Shown here piece after piece: positions 1-11,774 of a DNA stretch of 64,000 nucleotides (the stretch's first letter is position 1; each line of letters starts with the position of its first letter). The position numbers and the translations under genes were made by a program. The DNA is from Marinobacterium sediminicola. Lineage in GTDB: Bacteria; Pseudomonadota; Gammaproteobacteria; Pseudomonadales; Balneatricaceae. The notes below the pieces were generated by a model. The model was not told the DNA's origin. It saw only the letters and a program-made list of their open reading frames with translations, and searched no databases. The stretch covers positions 372,001 through 436,000 of the forward strand of contig NZ_CP092123.1 of assembly GCF_022343685.1 (NCBI RefSeq). Direction: 5' to 3'.

Positions 1-705
1 GCTATGGTGCTCGGCGGCGATATCGGCATTTTCGTGAACCCGCCCTCTATTCTGATCGTTCTTGGCGGGACACTGCTGGTCGTGTTAATGAAATTCACGC
101 TTGCCCAGTTCCTTGCCGCCGGCAAAGTGATGGTCAAGGCGTTCATGTTCAAGTCTCTTAACCCTGAAGACATCATCGCTGAAACCGTTGATCTGGCGGA
201 TGCCGCACGCAAGGGCGGGCTGCTGTCGCTGGAGGACAAGCAAGTGTCATCTGACTTCATGCAGCGGGGCATTCAGCTGCTGGTGGATGGCCATGACCCA
301 GAAGTGGTCAAGCAACTGCTGAAAAAGGAAGCGGGCCTGACCTACGACCGTCATGACTTTGGGACCAAGATTTTCAAGGCGATGGGGGATGTTGCCCCGG
401 CGATGGGCATGATCGGTACGCTGGTGGGTCTGGTACAGATGCTGTCCAACATGTCTGATCCCAAATCCATCGGTCCCGCGATGGCGGTGGCCCTGTTGAC
501 CACGCTGTACGGTGCCATGATTGCCAACATGTTTGCGCTGCCGATTGCGGACAAGCTGGAAGTGCGCCGTGACGAAGAAGCGCTTAACCAGGCACTGGTG
601 ATTGATGGGCTGCTGGCGATTCAGGCAGGCCAGAACCCACGTGTAATCGACCAGATGCTGCGCAGCTACCTGCCCGAAGGTAAACGTGCCGTTGCCGAAA
701 GCTGA
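1..705 (+). CDS. pomA: Flagellar motor stator protein PomA/MotA (5' end cut by window)
   Basis: Inner-membrane A subunit of the flagellar stator; with PomB it forms the ion channel that drives rotation. The frame is open from base 1, and the family normally has about 20 more residues (first membrane helix) before this point, so the true start lies upstream of the window. Visible are the second membrane segment, the charged cytoplasmic loop, and the conserved proline-containing third and fourth helices (DVAPAMGMIGTLVGLV, then a helix near residues 165-190). It sits 11 bp before a PomB-type partner, which argues for the sodium-driven version rather than proton MotA. Confident about the family, less so about the ion. 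Confidence 0.93.
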   Translation, partial: AMVLGGDIGIFVNPPSILIVLGGTLLVVLMKFTLAQFLAAGKVMVKAFMFKSLNPEDIIAETVDLADAARKGGLLSLEDKQVSSDFMQRGIQLLVDGHDPEVVKQLLKKEAGLTYDRHDFGTKIFKAMGDVAPAMGMIGTLVGLVQMLSNMSDPKSIGPAMAVALLTTLYGAMIANMFALPIADKLEVRRDEEALNQALVIDGLLAIQAGQNPRVIDQMLRSYLPEGKRAVAES

Positions 706-716
706 GGGATGCGGCG

Positions 717-1646
717 ATGAGTGACGATAACGAAGAGAAGTGTAAATGTCCCCCGCCCGGTGCGCCTGCATGGATGGCGACCTTTGCGGATTTGATGTCG
801 CTGTTGATGTGCTTCTTCGTGCTCTTGCTGTCCTTTTCCGAGATGGACGTGCTCAAGTTCAAACAGCTGGCCGGTTCCATGCGCGAGGCCTTCGGCGTAC
901 AGAATCAGATCAAGGTTGAAGATATCCCCAAGGGTACCTCTATCATTGCACAGGAGTTCAGTCCCGGGCGTCCAGAGCCAACGCCGCTGAACGAAGTGCG
1001 TCAAATGACCATCAATAATGACATGAACAGTCTTGATGTTCGTTCCCTTGAAGGTGAAGCGCAGATCGAGGATCGGCTGAAAGGTCTGGAGGCGTTGCGT
1101 CGTGAGCAGGAAGAAACGGCCCGCGAAGAAGCGATTGCAGTGGCTGAGGCTCTGTCGGCAGAGATAGGCGAGGGCAGCGTCGAGGTGGAAACGGACGGTA
1201 CCCGTATCATTATCCGGGTGAAGGAGCGTGGTTCTTTTGATTCCGGCTCGGCTGCACTGAAGTTTGAATACATTCCAGTGGTGGCGAAGATCCGTGACCT
1301 GTTACTCGACATCAGTGGCAAGGTGGCGATTGAGGGGCATACTGACAATATTCCCTACGGCGGGCGTCAGTTCGAATCCAACTGGGAGCTGTCCTCGGCG
1401 CGTGCGCTGGCGGTTGCACATGAACTCTTTTCCGATCGTCGTATCAACCAGTCGAGATACAGCATCACCGGCTATGCCGATACTCGTCCACTGGGTCCCA
1501 ATAGCACACCGGAGCTGCGGGCGCGTAACCGTCGGGTTGAAATCGTGATTCAGAAAGGTGACGTGGAAGAAGCACTCGACAAGCTGCAGTCACGCCCTGA
1601 AGGGGATGTCGAGGGAGAGCCGATGGACCCGACCAGCCTGTTCTGA
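717..1646 (+). CDS. pomB: Flagellar motor stator protein PomB/MotB
   Basis: 309-residue B subunit of the stator. The N-terminus has the PomB-like motif KCKCPPPGAPAWMATFADL, in which the Asp just inside the single membrane helix is the ion-binding residue. A linker of about 100 residues leads to an OmpA-like peptidoglycan-binding domain (about residues 150-285, with the EGHTDNIPYGG and SSARA motifs). It is co-oriented with pomA, starts 11 bp after its stop, and ends just before a bidirectional terminator, so the two form an operon. Similarity to sodium-type PomB is recognised from memory of the family; ion use is an inference. Confidence 0.95.
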   Translation: MSDDNEEKCKCPPPGAPAWMATFADLMSLLMCFFVLLLSFSEMDVLKFKQLAGSMREAFGVQNQIKVEDIPKGTSIIAQEFSPGRPEPTPLNEVRQMTINNDMNSLDVRSLEGEAQIEDRLKGLEALRREQEETAREEAIAVAEALSAEIGEGSVEVETDGTRIIIRVKERGSFDSGSAALKFEYIPVVAKIRDLLLDISGKVAIEGHTDNIPYGGRQFESNWELSSARALAVAHELFSDRRINQSRYSITGYADTRPLGPNSTPELRARNRRVEIVIQKGDVEEALDKLQSRPEGDVEGEPMDPTSLF

Positions 1647-1670
1647 TCGGACAGAGAGGTTGTAGGCAAT

Positions 1671-1696
1671 AAAAAACCGCCAATAGGCGGTTTTTT
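1671..1696. terminator. Bidirectional rho-independent terminator
   Basis: An A6-CCGCC / GGCGG-T6 hairpin with a 4-base loop lies between the convergent ends of pomB (+) and the cytochrome c5 gene (-). The flanking A and T tracts allow it to stop transcription from both sides. Confidence 0.9.
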
Positions 1697-1715
1697 ATTG
1701 AGTCGGCCAAAGAGA

Positions 1716-2021
1716 TTACTTGGCAGCGTCCAGCATGTACTGAATGGCGGACTTGAGTTCGCTGTCAGAACAATCTGCACAGGTACCCTTCGGCGGCATG
1801 GCCTTGATACCGGTGATTGCGGTTGCCAGCAGAGCATCGATGCCTTTCTCGGCACGCGGAGCCCAGGCAGCAGCGTCACCGAATTTCGGCGCGCCAGCGA
1901 TACCGGCAACGTGACAAACGGAACACTTGGTGTTGTAAACTTCTTCGCCAGAGCGTTCAGCCATGGCAGCAGCCGGAGACAGCATCACGGCAGCAGCTGC
2001 GATCAGCAGGGTTTTCTTCAT
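1716..2021 (-). CDS. Cytochrome c5-type periplasmic monohaem protein
   Basis: 101 residues. A Sec signal peptide (MKKTLL then an Ala-rich core ending AAAMA) is followed by one CxxCH haem site (CSVCH), the KAMPPKG stretch carrying the axial Met, and a second Cys pair in GTCADCS that is typical of class I cytochrome c5. It should be a soluble or loosely bound periplasmic electron carrier to terminal oxidases. Monocistronic, ending at the terminator shared with pomB. Confidence 0.93.
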   Translation of the reverse strand: MKKTLLIAAAAVMLSPAAAMAERSGEEVYNTKCSVCHVAGIAGAPKFGDAAAWAPRAEKGIDALLATAITGIKAMPPKGTCADCSDSELKSAIQYMLDAAK

Positions 2022-2167
2022 AGCAGGCTTCCTTTATTAGATCGGTTTTCAACCGTTAGTACGCAAATAATGCGAGTTTAGGCCTGTCTTCTGCTGAAAG
2101 TAAATACTCCGAAGGTGCGGCATATCAACGCATCCGTGAGCGGCGTCAAGCAAAGTGTGGCAGGGGT

Positions 2168-2374
2168 TCAGCTCCAGCGTCCCAGGCGCATGGCGAAGTC
2201 TGCCTGCCCCTGCAATAGGCGGTCATGACGACGGCTGTGTTCCTGCAGGCGGTGCTCGCGAATGGCTTGTTCCAGCACTTCATGCGGTACCGGAACCAGA
2301 TTGCGTACATCTTCGATGGAGTAGCCCCGATTGAGCAACTGGCGCAGTTGAGCGGTGAGTTGAGTGGCGCTCAT
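2168..2374 (-). CDS. Hypothetical small cytoplasmic protein (68 aa)
   Basis: No family recognised. It is a short, charged, probably helical protein (RGYSIEDVRNLVPVPHEVLEQAI resembles a small helix-turn-helix-like fold) with an Arg/His-rich tail and no signal peptide or membrane segment. A clear ribosome-binding site (AGAGGATAAG) precedes the ATG, which supports a real gene. It lies between the cytochrome c5 gene and dsbB, all on the minus strand. Confidence 0.6.
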   Translation of the reverse strand: MSATQLTAQLRQLLNRGYSIEDVRNLVPVPHEVLEQAIREHRLQEHSRRHDRLLQGQADFAMRLGRWS

Positions 2375-2442
2375 GATCTTATCCTCTTGATTATGTCATG
2401 GCGCCATTATGAGGGGTTGATTGTGACAATTGGATGTCAGTT

Positions 2443-2952
2443 CTAAGGTGTTTTCCTGACAACGCTGGCGGCAAAAGCGGTTGCGCTGAAGATGATGAAA
2501 AACACTCCTGAGGCCAACAGCAGTTCGGCCATGGTAAAGCCGGCAACCATCTCAGGGGTGTAGCCGCAGGATTCCCAGATCTCAAACATCCAGGGCCACC
2601 ATTTATCGGGTGCAAACCAGGTTGGCAGGCCCGATTCAAGTGAACAGCTGCTTTCAATCCAGTAGCGCTCGATTGCCAGAGTGCGCCAGCTGCGTTCGGT
2701 AAAACCCAATGCGATGAGCAAAGCCAGGCATCTGCCTCCTGTCTGCACCTTTTGGCAGCGGGGCAACAGCAGCGCTGCAATGGCCAGCAGAATCAGTGCG
2801 AATAGCCAAAGTCGAATATGGATGCAGAGAACACAGGGGCCATAGTCGAGTGCATATTGATAATAAAGCGCTACGGCTTCGGCTGTCACAGCTCCAATAA
2901 GCAGTACCAGCCAGTAGATTCGCGAGTTCAAGAATTGCAGGATGAACTTCAT
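2443..2952 (-). CDS. dsbB: Disulfide bond formation protein B (DsbB)
   Basis: 169-residue inner-membrane protein that reoxidises DsbA and passes electrons to quinone. Four hydrophobic helices are seen. The first periplasmic Cys pair is C40-V-L-C43 and the second is C103 and C129, at almost the same positions as in E. coli DsbB. The ATG at 2952 (MKFILQF) was chosen because it places the first helix at the N-terminus as in the family; the open frame runs 21 codons further upstream without resembling DsbB. No DsbA gene is nearby in the window. Confidence 0.9.
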   Translation of the reverse strand: MKFILQFLNSRIYWLVLLIGAVTAEAVALYYQYALDYGPCVLCIHIRLWLFALILLAIAALLLPRCQKVQTGGRCLALLIALGFTERSWRTLAIERYWIESSCSLESGLPTWFAPDKWWPWMFEIWESCGYTPEMVAGFTMAELLLASGVFFIIFSATAFAASVVRKTP

Positions 2953-3053
2953 GAGGACCTGTCCCTGTGGAATTTTCAGCGTGAAAGAGTAGCCCGGTTG
3001 TTTATTGTCGAGCAAGTATTGGTGTCAGACGGAGCGGGTTGAAATAAGTTCAA

Positions 3054-3091
3054 TGCCCTAATGTGGTGCGTTGTTTGCACTAATGTAGTGC
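3054..3091 (+). promoter_or_regulatory. Tandem palindromic operator and possible sigma-54 promoter upstream of gdhA
   Basis: Two related sites, TGCCCTAATGTGGTGC (3054-3069) and the perfect palindrome GCACTAATGTAGTGC (3077-3091), lie about 22 bp centre to centre, roughly two helical turns. Both resemble NtrC sites (TGCAC, 6-7 bases, GGTGCA). Bases 3064-3079 (TGGTGCGTTGTTTGCA) also fit a sigma-54 -24/-12 element with two mismatches. These readings overlap, so at most some of them are correct. Nitrogen control of gdhA is an inference. Confidence 0.45.
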
Positions 3092-3204
3092 TTTATGATT
3101 GTCGCCGCTTTATCGTGTCGGGATTTTTCCAGCGCTTTCCGGTATTCCAGATGTCGCCTGACGTTTGTCAGAAATGCAGCAAGGCATTACTGACTGCACG
3201 TTGA

Positions 3205-4596
<1,392 letters not shown>

Positions 4597-4621
4597 ATAT
4601 CGATAGTGGATACACAAGCAA

Positions 4622-4644
4622 GGCCCGCATATTGCGGGCCTTTT
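4622..4644. terminator. Rho-independent terminator between gdhA and the PAS chemoreceptor gene
   Basis: The hairpin GGCCCGC-ATATT-GCGGGCC followed by TTTT lies between two convergent genes and could serve both. Confidence 0.85.
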
Positions 4645-4648
4645 GCAT

Positions 4649-5968
4649 TCAGTCCGCCTGAACCTGCTCTCGGAACTGACCGATCGCTTCCACTACACGT
4701 TGCGCTTCTTGGCGGATCTCCAGCATGACGGTACCTGTCTTGTTGGCGAGCAAGACACCTTGTTCCGCTTGAGTCTGACTGTTACGGGCCTCGTCAGCCG
4801 CGGTGGTTGCAAGGTGGCGGTTCTGCTCCACGACCTGCTTGATCTCTTCCGTTGCCTGACTGGTTCGCCGCGCCAGATTGCGGACCTCATCGGCGACCAC
4901 GGCAAACCCCCGACCCTGACTACCGGCACGGGCAGCTTCGATAGCCGCATTCAGTGCTAACAGGTTGGTCTGTTCGGCAATTTCCTGAATGACATCGACA
5001 ATGCGCTCAATCTTCCCGGACTGATCACTCAGTGCGGTCACATGTTCGGCCACTGTCTGTAGGCGCTGTTCTATATTGCGTACCATGCTGACTGTGTCGT
5101 CGACAGCAAGAGCACCGTTGACCGCACTTTGGTCAGTTTCAAGCGCAATGTCATATGCAAGCTGAGCGGCTTCTGACTCGGCGTTTCTTCGTTCGATATC
5201 GGCGGTGATGTCGCTGGCGATCTTGAGAACCCCAAAGCGCTTACCGGTAGCGTCATACAGCGGGTTGTAGGTGGCGTTGAGCCAAACGGTGCGTCCATGG
5301 CGATCCACACGTTCGAACATGCCGGACATGTATTCACCTTCGTTGAGCTGTTTCCAGAACTGCGTGTATTCCTTGGTGCCCACATAGGATTCCGGGCAGA
5401 ACATGCGGTGATGGCGACCCAGAATGTCCTTCTCCTGATAACCCATTGTGGACAGGAAATTCTGATTGGCGCGAATCACTTCACCCTGAAGGTTGAACTC
5501 AATGACCGCCATGGAGCGATTGATTGCATCCAGAAAGCTCTGGTGATCCTGCTCGCGTGAGACGGTGGGCGTTATATCCTGGGCCAGCTTGATGACCTTG
5601 GCCACCTGGCCGTCCTCACGGTTGACGGGGATATAGCTGGCTTCCAGCCAGACCCTGCGTCCCCCCTTATCTATACGACTGAAGCGTTCGCTGGCGCCTT
5701 TTCCGCGGGCAAGGTTCTGCCAGAAGCGGCGGTAATCAGGACTGCGCGTCAGGGTCGAGTCGCAGAGCATACTGTGGTGTTTGCCGATCAGTTCATCCTC
5801 AGCATAGCCCATCACTTTTGAAAAAAGCTCGTTGGCGCTAAGGATATACCCTTCCGGGGTGAACTCGATCATTGCCATCGAATTGCTTATGGCCGCAATC
5901 AATTGCTGACTCTCTGAAAGCTGCTCCCTGCAGATGGACAATTCTTGTTTCAGTTTACGTGTGAACAT
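4649..5968 (-). CDS. PAS-PAS-methyl-accepting chemotaxis protein, BdlA-like
   Basis: 439-residue soluble signalling protein. Two PAS sensor domains (about residues 20-125 and 140-250, each with the F(S/M)xVxxR and xWLxATYxP signatures of BdlA/Aer-type PAS-PAC units) are followed by a chemoreceptor signalling domain with the conserved hairpin tip ([21 protein letters not shown]). There is no membrane helix, so it should be cytoplasmic. Domain order and size match Pseudomonas BdlA, which controls biofilm dispersal, but an Aer-like redox role is equally possible. The open frame extends to 6037; the ATG at 5968 was preferred because a GGCGAGA sequence precedes it. Confidence 0.88.
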
Positions 5969-6122
5969 GGAAGGTCTCGCCATCACAAGAGGGTATGAGT
6001 CTGATCGTCCGGGTTCAGAGAGCCGGAGGCCAGACATACTACAGAAAAATAAGCCTGAATGGTTCTTAATATGTATCTGATGTGCGACTTACGCTGCAGA
6101 GTCTTGCTTGGATCATTGGCTA

Positions 6123-6665
6123 TCAGGGGGCAAATTGAGTCCAGCCCGATCCTATTGCACGAAAAGGGAGTTCCAGATTCAGTTCCGGAACCTTTTGTGC
6201 CACCCATGCCGGAAACGTATTGCTGTTTGGGCCAGGAAACACCCGGTATTCATGTTTCCAGGGGTAGTCTCTTACGGCCGCTTGTATTGGCGCTATCAGG
6301 CGCTCGGCTTCGGGGCCCCGCAGGTCCAGAATCAACTCCGGGCGGGCACCAAACCAATAGCGATCAGGAATGTCTCGCTCCTGCCGCAGCACCGGTAGTC
6401 CACGCTTTTCTCGCCACCCGATCACCTCGTAGACTATATATTGATCGGCATGCTGTGGTTTGACGGCTATCCAGGTATGAACCGCGAATAGACCTCGCCA
6501 ACCCCAGGCATCAGCGGCATAGGCTTGAATGACCGCCTCTGGGGTGTGCTCTGCCAAAGGGGCGATGCCGGCGCTGGCGCGACTAGCCGTCCTCCAGCCA
6601 TCACTGGAACAGCCGCTCAGGGCCAGCACCAGACTTAGCAGGGGAAGCAGATAGCGAGTCGACAT
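6123..6665 (-). CDS. DUF3750 lipoprotein, apparently short at the C-terminus
   Basis: 180 residues. A lipoprotein signal peptide (lipobox LSGC, Cys19) is followed by the DUF3750 signature (AWGWRGLFAVHTWIAVKP, YEVIGWR, YWFGARPELI, FPGPNSNTFPAWV). Function of the family is unknown. As I recall, members continue for some 60-70 residues after the AIG motif with a second conserved block; here the frame stops nine codons after it, and no matching continuation is seen in other frames of 6038-6122. It may be truncated or a naturally short variant. Confidence 0.75.
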   Translation of the reverse strand: MSTRYLLPLLSLVLALSGCSSDGWRTASRASAGIAPLAEHTPEAVIQAYAADAWGWRGLFAVHTWIAVKPQHADQYIVYEVIGWREKRGLPVLRQERDIPDRYWFGARPELILDLRGPEAERLIAPIQAAVRDYPWKHEYRVFPGPNSNTFPAWVAQKVPELNLELPFRAIGSGWTQFAP

Positions 6666-7568: not shown

Positions 7569-7835
7569 CGGGGCCTCGCTGTGGATAAAAGTGTGTCGGG
7601 CCAAGATACTATCACGGAGATAGCGCCGGAATCAGTTCGGGGCTGGTAACAGAGGTGGCTAGTCTTTTATCGAGTGTGGTCGGCTCAACAGATAACAGAA
7701 AAGAAGAGTTGCATGCTCTTTTCGCTGATCGCATGCTTTCTCTGAGACCGCTTCTGTTAAAGCCGATAGGCCTCTTCCGCATAAATCACGTCGAGAGGCT
7801 GACAATTATTAGAGGATGTTTGTTTTTGTTCGAAT
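7569..7835. other. Gap with no recognisable gene
   Basis: 267 bases between the SDR gene and the flagellin remnant. A small inverted repeat (GCCTCT...AGAGGC, about 7771-7803) is the only structure seen; it has no T tract on the flagellin strand and is not called a terminator. No coding potential is supported. Confidence 0.6.
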
Positions 7836-8079
7836 TTATCGAAGAAGGTTCAAAACTTGTTGGGGCTGTAAATTTGCCTGCGCAAGCATAGAGGTAGCTG
7901 CGCTCTGGATAATCTGAAACTTGGCCAGATTTGTACTTTCAATGGCAAAATCAGCATCTTCGATTCTTGATCGAGCTTCTGAATTTATAGTGACGGCCCC
8001 GCTCATATAACTAATGCTAAGGCTCAGCCGTGTCTGGACCGAGCCGAAGTTCCCTCGCAAAGAGTTGACCTGCTCTAAT
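7836..8079 (-). pseudogene. Flagellinolysin, C-terminal flagellin domain fragment
   Basis: On the minus strand this encodes the conserved C-terminal D1/D0 part of a flagellin: LEQVNSLRGNFGSVQTRL, then ARSRIEDADFA and SMLAQANLQPQQVLNLLR before the stop at 7836. The fragment has no start of its own. At 8074-8079 it meets the target duplication TCTAAT of the IS481 element. Removing that element and one duplication copy joins it in frame to the fragment at 9114-9927, reading FDKALEQVNSLRG, the usual flagellin sequence. It is therefore the 3' end of one interrupted gene. Confidence 0.9.
8074..8079. repeat. Target-site duplication of the IS481 element (left copy)
   Basis: TCTAAT directly abuts the left terminus TGTGGG; an identical copy is at 9114-9119 after the right terminus. 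One copy is needed to restore the flagellin reading frame, which confirms the element boundaries. Confidence 0.88.
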
Positions 8080-9113
8080 TGTGGGTGCTAAGGAGGTTGT
8101 TCACGCCGGTTAAGTTCGAGATGCTGGTTATCGCCAAACAAACAGCACAGAACAACCGACATGAACAACCCTCACAAGAATGCCCGAACTACGCCTCATA
8201 TTCGAGCCCTGATCGTTGATCGAGCCCTCCGTAAGCGGCAGCCGGTGCGAGACATTGCCAGCACTTTTGGTATCAGCACGCACACTGTGTACAAGTGGAT
8301 TGCTCGTTATCGAGAGGCAGGTGAGGCTGGTCTTGAGTCAGCATCCAGCCGTCCCCACGCCTCACCGAGGCAGATGCCGAAACAGTGGGTTGAGCTGATT
8401 CAGAAGATGCGCCTGACACTCAAGTGGACTGCCAAGCAGATCGCACAGGCACTGAGTCTGGCTTACTCCACAGTGACAGCTGTACTGCGCCGACTTAAGC
8501 TCAATCGAGCCTCACACCTGGAGCCGGTGCAACCTGCGCAGCGCTACGAACACCCCGCGCCGGGTGACATGCTGCATATGGATATCAAGAAGCTGCCTCG
8601 CTTCGACAGGCCCGGCCACCGCGTGACAAACAACCGTCGCCAGAATACCCGAGGTGCGGGTTATGAGTGCGTTCATATCTGTATTGATGATCACAGCCGC
8701 TGGGCGTTTGCCCGGGTACTACCAGATGAGCAGCAAGGCACCACAACGCGCTTTTTGGAAAACGCTCTAGCGGCCTACCGCGGAATAGGTGTAGAGGTGA
8801 AACGCCTGATGACCGATAACGGTCCAGCCTATCGTTCCCGTCGGTTCAATGCAGTTTTACAACGGGAAGGGATCAAGCATGTATACACGCGCCCATACAC
8901 GCCCAGAACGAACGGCAAGGCGGAGCGATTTATACAAACAATGATCAGGGAGTGGGCATATGCAGTGCCCTACGCAAACGACATATCAAGGGCCTGGGCG
9001 CTGACAGACTGGATCAACCACTACAATAAACAGCGCCCTCATGGCAGTATCGGAAATCTACCGCCGGTGTCTCGAATACCGAAGCTGCGTGAACAAGGTG
9101 TTTAGTATTCACA
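8080..9113 (+). mobile_element. IS481-family insertion sequence (about 1034 bp)
   Basis: Imperfect inverted ends: left TGTGGGTGCTAAGGAGGTTG and, read inward on the other strand, right TGTGAATACTAAACACCTTG, both continuing TTCACGC. They begin with TGT as in the IS481 family. The element has 6-bp direct repeats TCTAAT on both sides and one transposase gene. Length and single-gene design fit IS481. It looks intact and potentially active. Confidence 0.9.
8161..9105 (+). CDS. IS481-family transposase
   Basis: 314 residues. The N-terminus has two helix-turn-helix regions (VRDIASTFGISTHTVYKWI and a second around residues 95-115), followed by an integrase-core (rve) domain with a DDE triad: Asp in MLHMDIKKL, Asp in LMTDNGPAY, Glu in NGKAERFIQ. 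The ending WINHYNKQRPHGSIG...PPVSR is typical of the family. The stop codon lies inside the element, within the right inverted repeat. It is transcribed against the flagellin gene it interrupts. Confidence 0.95.
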   Translation: MNNPHKNARTTPHIRALIVDRALRKRQPVRDIASTFGISTHTVYKWIARYREAGEAGLESASSRPHASPRQMPKQWVELIQKMRLTLKWTAKQIAQALSLAYSTVTAVLRRLKLNRASHLEPVQPAQRYEHPAPGDMLHMDIKKLPRFDRPGHRVTNNRRQNTRGAGYECVHICIDDHSRWAFARVLPDEQQGTTTRFLENALAAYRGIGVEVKRLMTDNGPAYRSRRFNAVLQREGIKHVYTRPYTPRTNGKAERFIQTMIREWAYAVPYANDISRAWALTDWINHYNKQRPHGSIGNLPPVSRIPKLREQGV

Positions 9114-9119
9114 TCTAAT
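9114..9119. repeat. Target-site duplication of the IS481 element (right copy)
   Basis: TCTAAT immediately after the right terminus TTCACA, identical to 8074-8079. Confidence 0.88.
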
Positions 9120-9927
9120 GCTTTGTCAAATTTATCACTTGCACCTGAAGCGTCTACAGCTATATCGACCAGGCTAATTCCCAAACTGACCGTATCGACT
9201 CCACTGGTAGCAAGTTCAATTTTATCGGAAGCATGAGTACCAATAACGAAGGTATAGACCTTGTCAGGGGCTAGAGTGGGCGAATTCAGGGAAAAATTCT
9301 GAGCGCTTCCTGCTCTGACATCGTTAGCCAGAACGTTCTCGGCATTAAGCACGCTGCCTCCGTAATCTGAGCCAGCAATAGATCCAGTATCATCGTCAGC
9401 TAGATTAAGGCCATTGGTAGCATAGAGTCCCAAGCCATTGATAAAGTCAGCTCCATTGCTGGCAAAATGTGTATCAAACTCACTCAAGCTGCCATAGGGC
9501 AATGTGGCATAGCTTCCTTTTAAACTTGCCAGCGCGCTATCCAGAGAGTTATTCCTGTCTGCTGCCAAGTGAGCCATTACATCCTTGATGCCAGCCGCAC
9601 CGCCAGAGGCTGACTGGATATCGGCATGCAATTTTTTAACCGCTATATAAGCTGCTGAATAACCTTCGCTGGTTGTTGGAGAACCTGGAGTGGTTTGGTG
9701 AGCGGCCAGTATTGCAGCAATACCCACTCGGGCGATATCTGACTGAACTCGTTCATCCGCGCCGTGAATAAATTCAGCGGCTCCTTCAGTAAACCAACCG
9801 GGGAAGGAGTCCCCACCATCAACCTGGTTATTACTGCCATCTGCGGTCAGGTCCATGTTAACCGCCATTACGGCATGAACCATCTCATGAGCAATAATCC
9901 GATCATTATATAAAGGCGAGGAGCCCC
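9114..9927 (-). pseudogene. Flagellinolysin, metalloprotease domain and following D1 region
   Basis: Open minus-strand frame without an own start, entering from the IS3 edge as GSSPLYNDRIIAHEMVHAVM. It carries a zinc-protease HExxH motif (HEMVH, about 9881-9895) and a third-ligand candidate 33 residues after the first Glu in WFTEGAAEF, the gluzincin pattern. A segment like the returning flagellin D1 region follows (VIGTHASDKIELATSGVDTVSLGIS). Proteins of this design, flagellins with a metallopeptidase in the variable region, are known as flagellinolysins. The N-terminal flagellin half and the start of the protease domain are missing beyond the IS3 element, so the gene is dead. Confidence 0.85.
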
Positions 9928-9966
9928 GGTAATCCTCCCCTTTTTAGCTGATGCCAAAAGTAGAGG

Positions 9967-10782
9967 CTAAGCCACTTTTAGTGGTGGCTGGCCACCATTG
10001 GCTTTGTGCGGCCGCTCATGATTGTAAAACCAGAGCCACTGCGTTGCATAATCCTGAACGTCCTCTAGTGTTTCGAATAGATGCTTACTGACCCAGCTGT
10101 AGCGGAGCGTTCGATTGTGACGCTCGATGTAAGCGTTCTGTTGAGGCTTGCCGGGTTGAATATACTCAATCCGGATGTCATGTTTACGAGCCCAGTTGGT
10201 GAATTCGTGACTGATGAATTCTGGGCCGTTGTCACAGCGAATGTGCGATGGTTTCCCCCTCCACTCAATCAACTGAGACAGGGTGCGTATCACTCGCATG
10301 GATGGCAGAGAGAAGCCTGCTTCTATTGCCAGTCCTTCTCGCCGGTAGTCATCGATCACATTGAGCAGCCGGTAGCTTCTGCCATCCGACAGCTGATCGT
10401 GCATGAAGTCGATCGACCACACCTGGTTGCGTCGCAGGGGCTGTTTCAACGGCTCCGGCTTATGGCGCTTTAGGCGCCGCCGAGGCCGTATGCGCAGATT
10501 CAATGCAAGTTCACAGTAGATACGGTATACGCGCTTATGGTTCCAGCCGAAGCCTTTCACATTACGCAGGTAGTCAAAGCAAATACCAAAGCCCCAGTCT
10601 GAATCCTGTTCAGTCAGGCGGATCAACCAATCTGCAATCTCAGCATTCTCCGATGACAGCTTGGGTTGGTACCGGTAGCAGGATTCGCTGATACCAAAGG
10701 CAGCACAGGCAAGCCGGATACTGACGCCACGGGAAGCAACATAGGTCTGTGCCATCTCCTTGCGCCGAGACGGCTTCACCAC
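9967..10782 (-). CDS. IS3-family transposase OrfB (DDE catalytic subunit)
   Basis: 271 residues. An N-terminal HTH_21-like segment precedes an integrase core with the DDE triad: Asp in [10 protein letters not shown], Asp in IRCDNGPEF, Glu in [10 protein letters not shown]. It ends with the typical [11 protein letters not shown]. The frame starts with GTG inside the end of OrfA; the normal product should be an OrfAB fusion made by -1 frameshifting at the A7-G run at 10792-10799. No inactivating change is seen. Confidence 0.93.
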
Positions 10783-11042
10783 TTTTTTTGCAGTGCTTCC
10801 TGGATGATCTCGGCTTTCAGCCGCTCTTCAGCATACATTTTCTTCAGGCGGCGGTTTTCATCTTCAAGCTCTTTCAGCCGAGCCATCAACGAAGCATCCA
10901 TGCCGCCGTATTTCGCCCGCCACTTATAAAATGTGGCGCTGCTCATCCCATGTTCACGACATAGTTCGGGAACTGGGGTACCTGCTTCCGCTTGTTTCAG
11001 TATCGCCATGATCTGGCTGTCGGTGTATCGGGACTTCTTCAT
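10776..11042 (-). CDS. IS3-family transposase OrfA (DNA-binding subunit)
   Basis: 88 residues: a helix-turn-helix ([13 protein letters not shown] then [20 protein letters not shown]) and a leucine-zipper-like coiled coil ([20 protein letters not shown]). It ends ALQKKW over a canonical A-AAA-AAG slippery heptamer, where a -1 shift would lead into OrfB, the usual IS3-family arrangement. Confidence 0.92.
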
Positions 11043-11113
11043 GCAGAACCTCCTGCGTATACATTACGAGAAAATTCTACTTTTGAGCACTGCTACTTTT
11101 CGGGGGGATTACC

Positions 11114-11216
11114 CCCCTGCAGGAGTGATTTCCAGGTATAGGGATCTCTCATCGCTCAGGCGATACACCTTGTCGCGGGGCTTGGCGGCTTTGATCTGAC
11201 GGTCGGAAAGTGGCAT
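11114..11216 (-). pseudogene. P4-type tyrosine integrase, first 34 codons only
   Basis: Starting at the ATG at 11216 the minus strand reads MPLSDRQIKAAKPRDKVYRL and then SDERSLYLEITPAG before running into the IS3 terminus. This is the N-terminal arm-binding domain (DUF4102 type) of P4-like integrases. All core-binding and catalytic parts are gone. Its position about 200 bp from the tmRNA 3' end, pointing away from it, is the usual place of an integrase of a tmRNA-targeted genomic island. Too short to be found as an ordinary open frame. Confidence 0.82.
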
Positions 11217-11238
11217 GGCTCCCTCTGCTCAATTCGAG

Positions 11239-11312
11239 TGGGGGCATGTCTTTGGGGGCATAAGAAATTCAAACCAGCAATCTGCCCCCAGCGATGCCCC
11301 CAATGTGCCCCG
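11239..11312. repeat. Five inverted-orientation TGGGGGCA-type repeats, probable integrase arm sites
   Basis: TGGGGGCAT occurs at 11239-11247 and 11253-11261; the reverse form TGCCCCCA occurs at 11283-11290 and 11295-11302, with a degenerate copy (TGCCCC) at 11306-11311. They lie between the integrase start and the tmRNA 3' end, where arm-type binding sites are expected. Spacing within each group is 11-14 bp. Function is inferred from position and spacing. Confidence 0.6.
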
Positions 11313-11390
11313 GATTTGCTGGCACTTGTTGGGACTGTCTGAAACCAACAATAGGCCGTGAGGCCCATGGTTTCAAGGGGTGTGGGATTG

Positions 11391-11410
11391 TCTGGGAAAG
11401 TCTGGGAAGG
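11391..11410. repeat. Tandem 10-bp repeat next to the tmRNA 3' end
   Basis: TCTGGGAAAG (11391-11400) is followed directly by TCTGGGAAGG (11401-11410), five bases from the tmRNA 3' terminus. It is presumably part of the island attachment region; no second copy of the tmRNA 3' end was found in the window, so the other attachment site is absent here. Confidence 0.4.
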
Positions 11411-11415
11411 GAAGG

Positions 11416-11774
11416 TGGTGGAGGTGGCGGGTTTCGAACCCGCGTCCGCCAATCCTCTGCCTCAAGATCTACATGCTTAGGCATCTCTATTTAGTTAACC
11501 CGTCGCGACCCGAGAGCCAGGGTGCTATGGGCGAGCTCTTTTAGTTTTAACCGTTCAGCTTAGAGCAAAGCATCCGGGCGATTCTGTCTCGAATGACACC
11601 GCAAAATCTCTGAGTTACAGACACCTTAGAGCGCGGCGCTGGCTGACTTAAGCAGCCAGAGCGTAGTTATCGTCGTTTGCAACTATAACTGTGTGATGAG
11701 GGATTTACGAGAATCATCACGTTCTCGGCATGCACCTAAGGGTTCGTAATCAGCGTCGAAGCCAAGTCACCCCC
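11416..11774 (-). ncRNA. ssrA: Transfer-messenger RNA (tmRNA)
   Basis: Minus-strand RNA of about 359 nt. The 5' end GGGGGUGACUUGGCUUCGACG pairs through its first seven bases with the 3' acceptor CACCUCC before ACCA. The T-arm GGGUUCGAAACCC is present. The resume reading frame at 11648-11680 encodes the tag ANDDNYALAA followed by UAA. It is a complete one-piece tmRNA; the CCA end is encoded. smpB lies just upstream in the same direction. The 3' end has served as an integration target (see the integrase remnant). Confidence 0.96.

Follow-up and report, generated by a model that had tools for sequence, protein, structure and literature searches.

A truncated flagellinolysin gene broken by two insertion sequences beside ssrA in Marinobacterium sediminicola, probably the relic of a wrecked integrative island

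Introduction

Proteolytic flagellins, termed flagellinolysins, were catalogued by Eckhard et al. (2017), who reported 86 such proteins from 74 species (PMC5595980). In the sections of that paper available to us, the scattered distribution of the family is ascribed to lateral transfer, a full-gene insertion is named in Comamonas aquatica, and the flagellinolysin motifs are described as conserved rather than lost through pseudogenization (PMC5595980). The terms genomic island, transpos- and RTX do not occur in its main text (PMC5595980). The flagellinolysin gene of Hylemonella lies outside the flagellar cluster and, according to the available part of the report, lateral transfer was considered for it (PMC7643111). 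In the accessible portions of the literature on flagellinolysin, or on flagellin together with genomic islands or ssrA/tmRNA, we found neither a relic of the kind described below nor its location at ssrA.

Here we describe a locus in a 64,000-nucleotide stretch (the window) of the genome of Marinobacterium sediminicola, a gammaproteobacterium taken to be environmental and marine; the genome is a single contig of 3.55 Mb (G000; window C1:372001-436000). Like the flagellinolysins in the available part of the 2017 description, the locus encodes a gluzincin domain (HExxH...E) in the variable region of a flagellin, with a flagellin C-terminal domain after it; unlike them, it is without the N-terminal flagellin domain, carries two IS elements, and has an integrase remnant at ssrA as a neighbour (PMC5595980). 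It is a pseudogene with intact motifs, in contrast to the statement on pseudogenization cited above (PMC5595980). Flagellinolysins, their activity and their lateral spread were already known; the relic is a dead new addition to this family, and its setting is probably a wrecked ssrA island.

Results

The remnant flagellinolysin gene

The features of the locus are listed below, with positions counted from the first base of the window.

11416..11774, minus strand: ssrA (tmRNA), intact, the integration site (ARAGORN; RF00023, 207 bits)
11416..11442, minus strand: 27-bp 3' end of ssrA, of which two same-genus genomes have a further copy as att, single copy in the window
11114..11216, minus strand: N-terminus of a tyrosine integrase, 34 codons, cut by the IS3-family element (PF13356)
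9928..11113, minus strand: IS3-family element, 1186 bp, ends GGTAATCC/GGATTACC, CCCC on both sides, OrfB at 9967-10782
9114..9927, minus strand: flagellinolysin remnant, peptidase piece with HEMVH and WFTEGAAEF, from an abrupt start at the IS3 boundary to the IS481 element
8080..9113, plus strand: IS481-family element, 1034 bp, transposase at 8161-9105 (NF033577, 300 bits)
8074-8079 (copy 1) and 9114-9119 (copy 2), no strand: 6-bp target duplication TCTAAT
7836..8079, minus strand: C-terminal flagellin piece (D1/D0) of the flagellinolysin remnant, stop codon included (PF00700)
7605..7835, no strand: low-GC stretch (46.3%) from the relic to the SDR gene, no att detected, presumed other end of the island

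The minus-strand frame that is open from 9927 contains, as read from its translation, HEMVH and WFTEGAAEFIHGAD; it also contains NDRIIAHEMVHAVMA and, further on, FPGWFTEGAAEFIHGAD. A preliminary description of this DNA, made from the sequence alone, had noted both motifs in this frame, and the open frame was confirmed. Between 9925 and 9122 (268 codons), the translation matched the NCBIfam flagellinolysin model NF033876 with 209.5 bits (cut-off 205) over model positions 123-372 of 384, and it represents the 3' part of the flagellinolysin peptidase domain. The flagellin D1 sequence that had been placed upstream of the IS481 element is present there as the tail of NF033876 only, whereas a Pfam scan of the piece returned 0 families and no flagellin match. 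Beyond the IS481 element, 8078-7839 matched PF00700 (Flagellin_C) with 74.9 bits against a cut-off of 23. The family assignment and the flagellin C-terminus proposed in the preliminary description are borne out by these two scores; as to flagellin profiles in the frame, PF00700 matched but PF00669 is absent from the remnant.

In an alignment of the peptidase piece with four intact homologues (34-42% identity), H13, E14, H17 and E47 are invariant across all five sequences; the HExxH and downstream Glu of a gluzincin site are thus present. Two of the homologues belong to organisms of the same family, assigned by NCBI to the Oceanospirillaceae, and share the peptidase core between full flagellin ends: that of Motiliproteus sediminis (L008/L120) is intact, 599 aa long and 42% identical to the window piece, and that of Marinobacterium litorale (L012/L121) is intact, 1016 aa long and 38% identical, with 51% identity in the C-terminal piece. 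The nearest kin of the relic reached 46% identity over 228 columns.

The two copies of the duplicated TTA codon, at 9118-9116 and at 8078-8076, are 1040 bases apart and read in one frame. The matching register and the target duplication tie the peptidase and Flagellin_C pieces together as one gene, and the earlier register arithmetic holds, because the TTA codon keeps the frame on both sides. The profile scores rule out a chance origin of these features, as do the seven identical IS481 copies of the genome, each with its own 6-bp duplication. Judged from sequence, the two pieces are the remains of a dead flagellinolysin gene.

The genome also encodes a separate, intact ordinary flagellin of 812 aa (FliC), in which no peptidase family was found by Pfam scan or among the best 25 of 29 NCBIfam matches. 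Origin of the remnant as a recent duplicate of this flagellin was considered and rejected, its C-terminal piece being only 50% identical to FliC. No second copy of the peptidase was found in the genome, where the preliminary description had suggested looking for an intact copy of the gene.

Loss of the 5' part

The homology of the peptidase piece to the four intact homologues runs right to the IS3 edge. In these proteins 232, 244, 225 and 428 residues precede the corresponding position, and PF00669 lies within that upstream part in all four. In a profile search of the genome, this flagellin N-terminal domain was found in two places only, the 812-aa main flagellin (fliC) and FlgL, at 3.06 Mb, and is absent from the remnant gene. 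Measured against the homologues, the gene has lost 225-428 codons, which held the start, the N-terminal D0/D1 region and the beginning of the peptidase region. Since PF00669 occurs only in fliC and flgL, we regard the remnant as a truncated relic and not as a working family member; as it stands, it cannot make flagellin.

This changes the picture of a gene split by a single insertion sequence. A second break, the IS3-family element at 9928-11113, lies exactly at the 5' edge of the frame, and the interval previously delimited ended at 9927 because this element starts at 9928. Besides taking the IS481 insertion, this copy has lost its start and its entire N-terminal flagellin part at the IS3 edge. 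Excision of the IS481 element would restore the frame in the sense that the register matches (TTA, 1040 bases apart), but it would not restore the gene, as the 5' part is absent; with start and N-terminal part missing, loss of the IS481 element alone could not give a flagellin.

The two insertion sequences

The IS481-family element was correctly recognized in the preliminary description as a 1034-bp insertion at 8080-9113, with TCTAAT on both sides (NF033577, 300 bits). It has inverted ends and is present in the genome in seven copies, all identical, with a 6-bp duplication at 7/7. Its insertion into the remnant looks young. The earlier view that the gene was lost recently stands to the extent that this insertion is clean and apparently recent, but the history that was built on it is unsupported.

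The IS3-family element (OrfB: NF033516, 222 bits) also carries an ORF at 10776-11042 that we take to be OrfA-like. It is present in the genome in six full copies, the window copy differing from the other five at 4 positions. Matching 4-bp flanks were found at three of the six copies (CCCC in the window, ATGC in L047, AAAT in L048); the other three have no matching 4-bp flanks. Among the copies L047-L051, some flanks of one copy match those of another, as GTTG does in L051 and L049. The unmatched and cross-paired flanks suggest IS3-mediated chromosome rearrangements. At the locus itself, the integrase frame and the flagellinolysin frame each reach an edge of the element, and GGGG ends both edges. 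An IS3-linked deletion, or recombination between copies, would be the simplest way to flank one element with two half genes; a simple IS3 insertion into a pre-existing fusion is possible.

The ssrA site

One class of genomic islands that integrate at ssrA carries P4-type integrases, and we take the 34-codon integrase piece to be of this type. It reads MPLSDRQIKAAKPRDKVYRLSDERSLYLEITPAG and matched PF13356 (Arm-DNA-bind_3) with 22.7 bits (E 1e-4), which is below the whole-protein cut-off of 27. In the same-genus genome G007 the 27-bp ssrA end recurs without mismatch 10 kb from ssrA (L072 629-655 and 10674-10700). The integrase start beside this second att is 65% identical to the 34-codon piece, and the spacers between att and integrase are 71% identical over 269 aligned columns. 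The larger part of the G007 integrase matches Phage_integrase, and its reading frame seems to be frameshifted. The window thus resembles the ssrA island of G007 in its 27-bp ssrA end and in the related spacer and integrase start that come after it, and differs from it in keeping only 34 integrase codons and one att copy. A second perfect 27-bp ssrA end also occurs in the same-genus genome G005, ~9.8 kb away (L070 301-327 and 10106-10132), and ssrA looks like an integration hotspot in the genus. Since a search of the window that tolerated up to 6 mismatches gave no second att copy, the far border of the island could be placed by indirect means only, and we infer that it was lost or decayed. A 15-bp repeat at 7855/11324 was taken as chance.

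The genes around the locus, named from their translations, are presumably motA, motB, gdh, SDR, smpB, fliD, fliS, flaG, flrA and flrB. In the same-genus genome G002 the order is as in the window (motA, motB, cytochrome, DsbB-like, gdh, SDR, ssrA, smpB), and only a 104-aa ORF lies between SDR and ssrA. This ORF had no match in the host genome in a search run without a positive control, and it matched no Pfam family. Among the seven same-genus genomes, the SDR gene was seen beside ssrA in G002 only; the ssrA stretches of G001, G004 and G006 are cut by contig ends, and no SDR homologue was found within the stretches fetched from G003, G005 and G007. The window has two genes between gdh and SDR (4649-6665), which we take to be a PAS/chemoreceptor-like gene and a gene for a 180-aa lipoprotein-like product; they are absent in G002, where gdh adjoins SDR.

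Base composition and distribution

The GC content is 48.5% in the peptidase piece and 45.9% in the C-terminal piece, against 57.4 ± 2.7% for segments of 804 bp. None of the 293 such segments wholly outside 7605-11415 was as low, the lowest being 50.9%. We treat GC as supporting evidence only, because the main flagellin gene fliC is also low (51.4%).

In a scan of 96 genomes, four exceeded the NF033876 cut-off (G000, G014, G044 and G065); G026 scored 181.3 bits in the genome scan, below the cut-off, and 218.2 bits as a whole protein, above it. Flagellinolysins were thereby found in none of seven same-genus genomes and in 3 of 52 other same-family genomes, and the intact copy envisaged in sister genomes is accordingly not among the same-genus set at this cut-off. 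Carriage by phages or plasmids was also considered and rejected: there were 0 matches in 50,697 phage records and one IMG/VR contig at 30% identity, and 4 of 72,556 plasmid records matched, all at ~29-30% identity.

The peptidase module in other proteins

A scan of genome contigs for relatives of the peptidase piece gave 153 stretches, and the best 80 were retained. Five of these 80 encode giant proteins with RTX-type repeats (L078, L080, L081, L089 and L091), from Cellvibrio and gammaproteobacterial MAGs; the lengths read are 2152 to 4411 aa, with L078 and L089 cut off by the ends of their contigs. They share the peptidase core with the window piece at 41-45% identity. Unlike the relic, their modules are embedded among Ca-binding nonapeptide and Ig-like repeats, as established for L078 by Pfam scan (77-6532; 13 HemolysinCabind and 9 Big_6 stretches) and for the other four by reading. 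A 392-aa Alteromonas protein (L137, 9491-10666) has the peptidase core without a flagellin domain. No flagellin match was found in the five RTX proteins or at the L137 locus, and Pfam likewise gave none for L078 and L137. L078 (222.6 bits), L089 (212 bits) and L137 (238.7 bits) nevertheless all exceed the NF033876 cut-off; because the model also passes on such non-flagellin proteins, a pass alone is insufficient for membership in the flagellinolysins. Read from these architectures, two or more types of scaffold have housed the module.

A quick tree of the peptidase module was built with 77 rows, from 81 loci considered and a row for the window; L095, L106 and L152 (motif not in one frame) and L145 and L155 (short) were left out. 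The RTX modules cluster together (SH-aLRT 99), and L137 falls among Colwellia-type flagellin loci. The window joins the RTX group together with L121, L127 and L130 at 87, a weak join; two of these three loci are on long end branches that meet, and the grouping may be false according to the program's warning. None of 84 flagellinolysin-type loci (81 distinct places, many with short flanks) had an integrase of the G007 type nearby.

Discussion

The locus carries the flagellinolysin pieces and both IS elements next to an integrase start and an att end at ssrA, and the corresponding interval of G002 is free of an island. We consider it likely that an integrative island inserted at the ssrA 3' end carried a flagellinolysin gene into this genome and that the gene was afterwards lost, leaving a remnant that is N-terminally truncated and doubly damaged by IS elements. 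Gain with an island followed by loss is argued for by the integrase remnant at ssrA, the G002 interval, the low GC, the 0/7 congeners with the gene, and the separate intact flagellin. The island would have brought the gene to the ssrA 3' end; an IS3 deletion or inter-copy recombination may account for the loss of other cargo, of the gene's 5' part and of all but the start of the integrase; the IS481 element would have struck the remaining gene after, or before, the IS3 event; and the far att would have been lost as well. By analogy with the known family, the product of the intact gene may have been exported through the flagellum and co-polymerised via its flagellin D0/D1 regions, with the zinc peptidase exposed on the filament. 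The conclusion of the preliminary description, that this lineage once made enzymatic filaments, finds no support in a gene that is truncated at the IS3 element, lies by an integrase remnant and has no counterpart over the cut-off in seven congeners, in a genome with an intact separate flagellin.

Against the island, the integrase and the flagellinolysin gene are not proven to come from one element, as the IS3 junction could have joined them, and the free interval between ssrA and SDR is that of one genome, G002. The window also shows no second att copy, the integrase piece is short and scores below the Pfam cut-off, fliC is low in GC too, and none of the 84 flagellinolysin-type loci has such an integrase close by. 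In the main rival explanation, an ancestral, vertically inherited second flagellin would have decayed in place, an ssrA island inserted beside it later, and IS3 joined the two. The flagellinolysins of three among 52 other same-family genomes fit such a history, as does the weak grouping of the peptidase domain with some gamma forms (SH-aLRT 87). However, none of the seven same-genus genomes is over the cut-off, a single 104-aa ORF separates ssrA from SDR in G002, and the remnant is low in GC, so we judge vertical decay to be rather unlikely, though by no means negligible.

The other two alternatives are far less probable. An origin of the peptidase piece in an RTX-type, non-flagellin protein, with an accidental position next to a flagellin C-terminus, might be suspected from the fact that three of the four best tblastn matches are peptidase modules of giant RTX proteins, and that both RTX proteins tested pass the NF033876 cut-off. 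Yet flagellin-type loci are equally close to the piece (L098 44%, L152 45%), the five RTX modules group by themselves at 99%, apart from the window, and register and target duplication unite the two pieces; such an accident is very improbable. Least credible of all is a switchable or reserve gene to be revived by IS481 excision: the register does match across the 6-bp duplication, but the start, the N-terminal D0/D1 and the upstream part of the peptidase are absent at the IS3 edge, and no donor for the N-terminal part exists in the genome besides fliC and flgL.

Under the island explanation, the locus is a wrecked candidate for the vehicle of the lateral transfer to which the scattered distribution was ascribed in 2017, and it illustrates that the flagellinolysin trait can be lost again. 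The finding that the profile named flagellinolysin (NF033876) labels non-flagellin proteins too is a warning for annotation.

A broader and more tentative idea, which we hold to be possible but less than probable, is that the flagellinolysin peptidase is a travelling module, transported by islands that insert at ssrA (in the present genome and perhaps in Methyloversatilis thermotolerans) and shifted between the filament and giant RTX proteins that are secreted or at the surface. In M. thermotolerans (L090, 8598-10999) an intact flagellinolysin ORF lies ~315 bp behind ssrA in the same orientation; the locus has no second copy of the ssrA end and no match to the G007 integrase, and the two congeners in the set have no ssrA near their loci. 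This ssrA-adjacent flagellinolysin is one case, and suggestive. A candidate permuted tmRNA was also called in L099.
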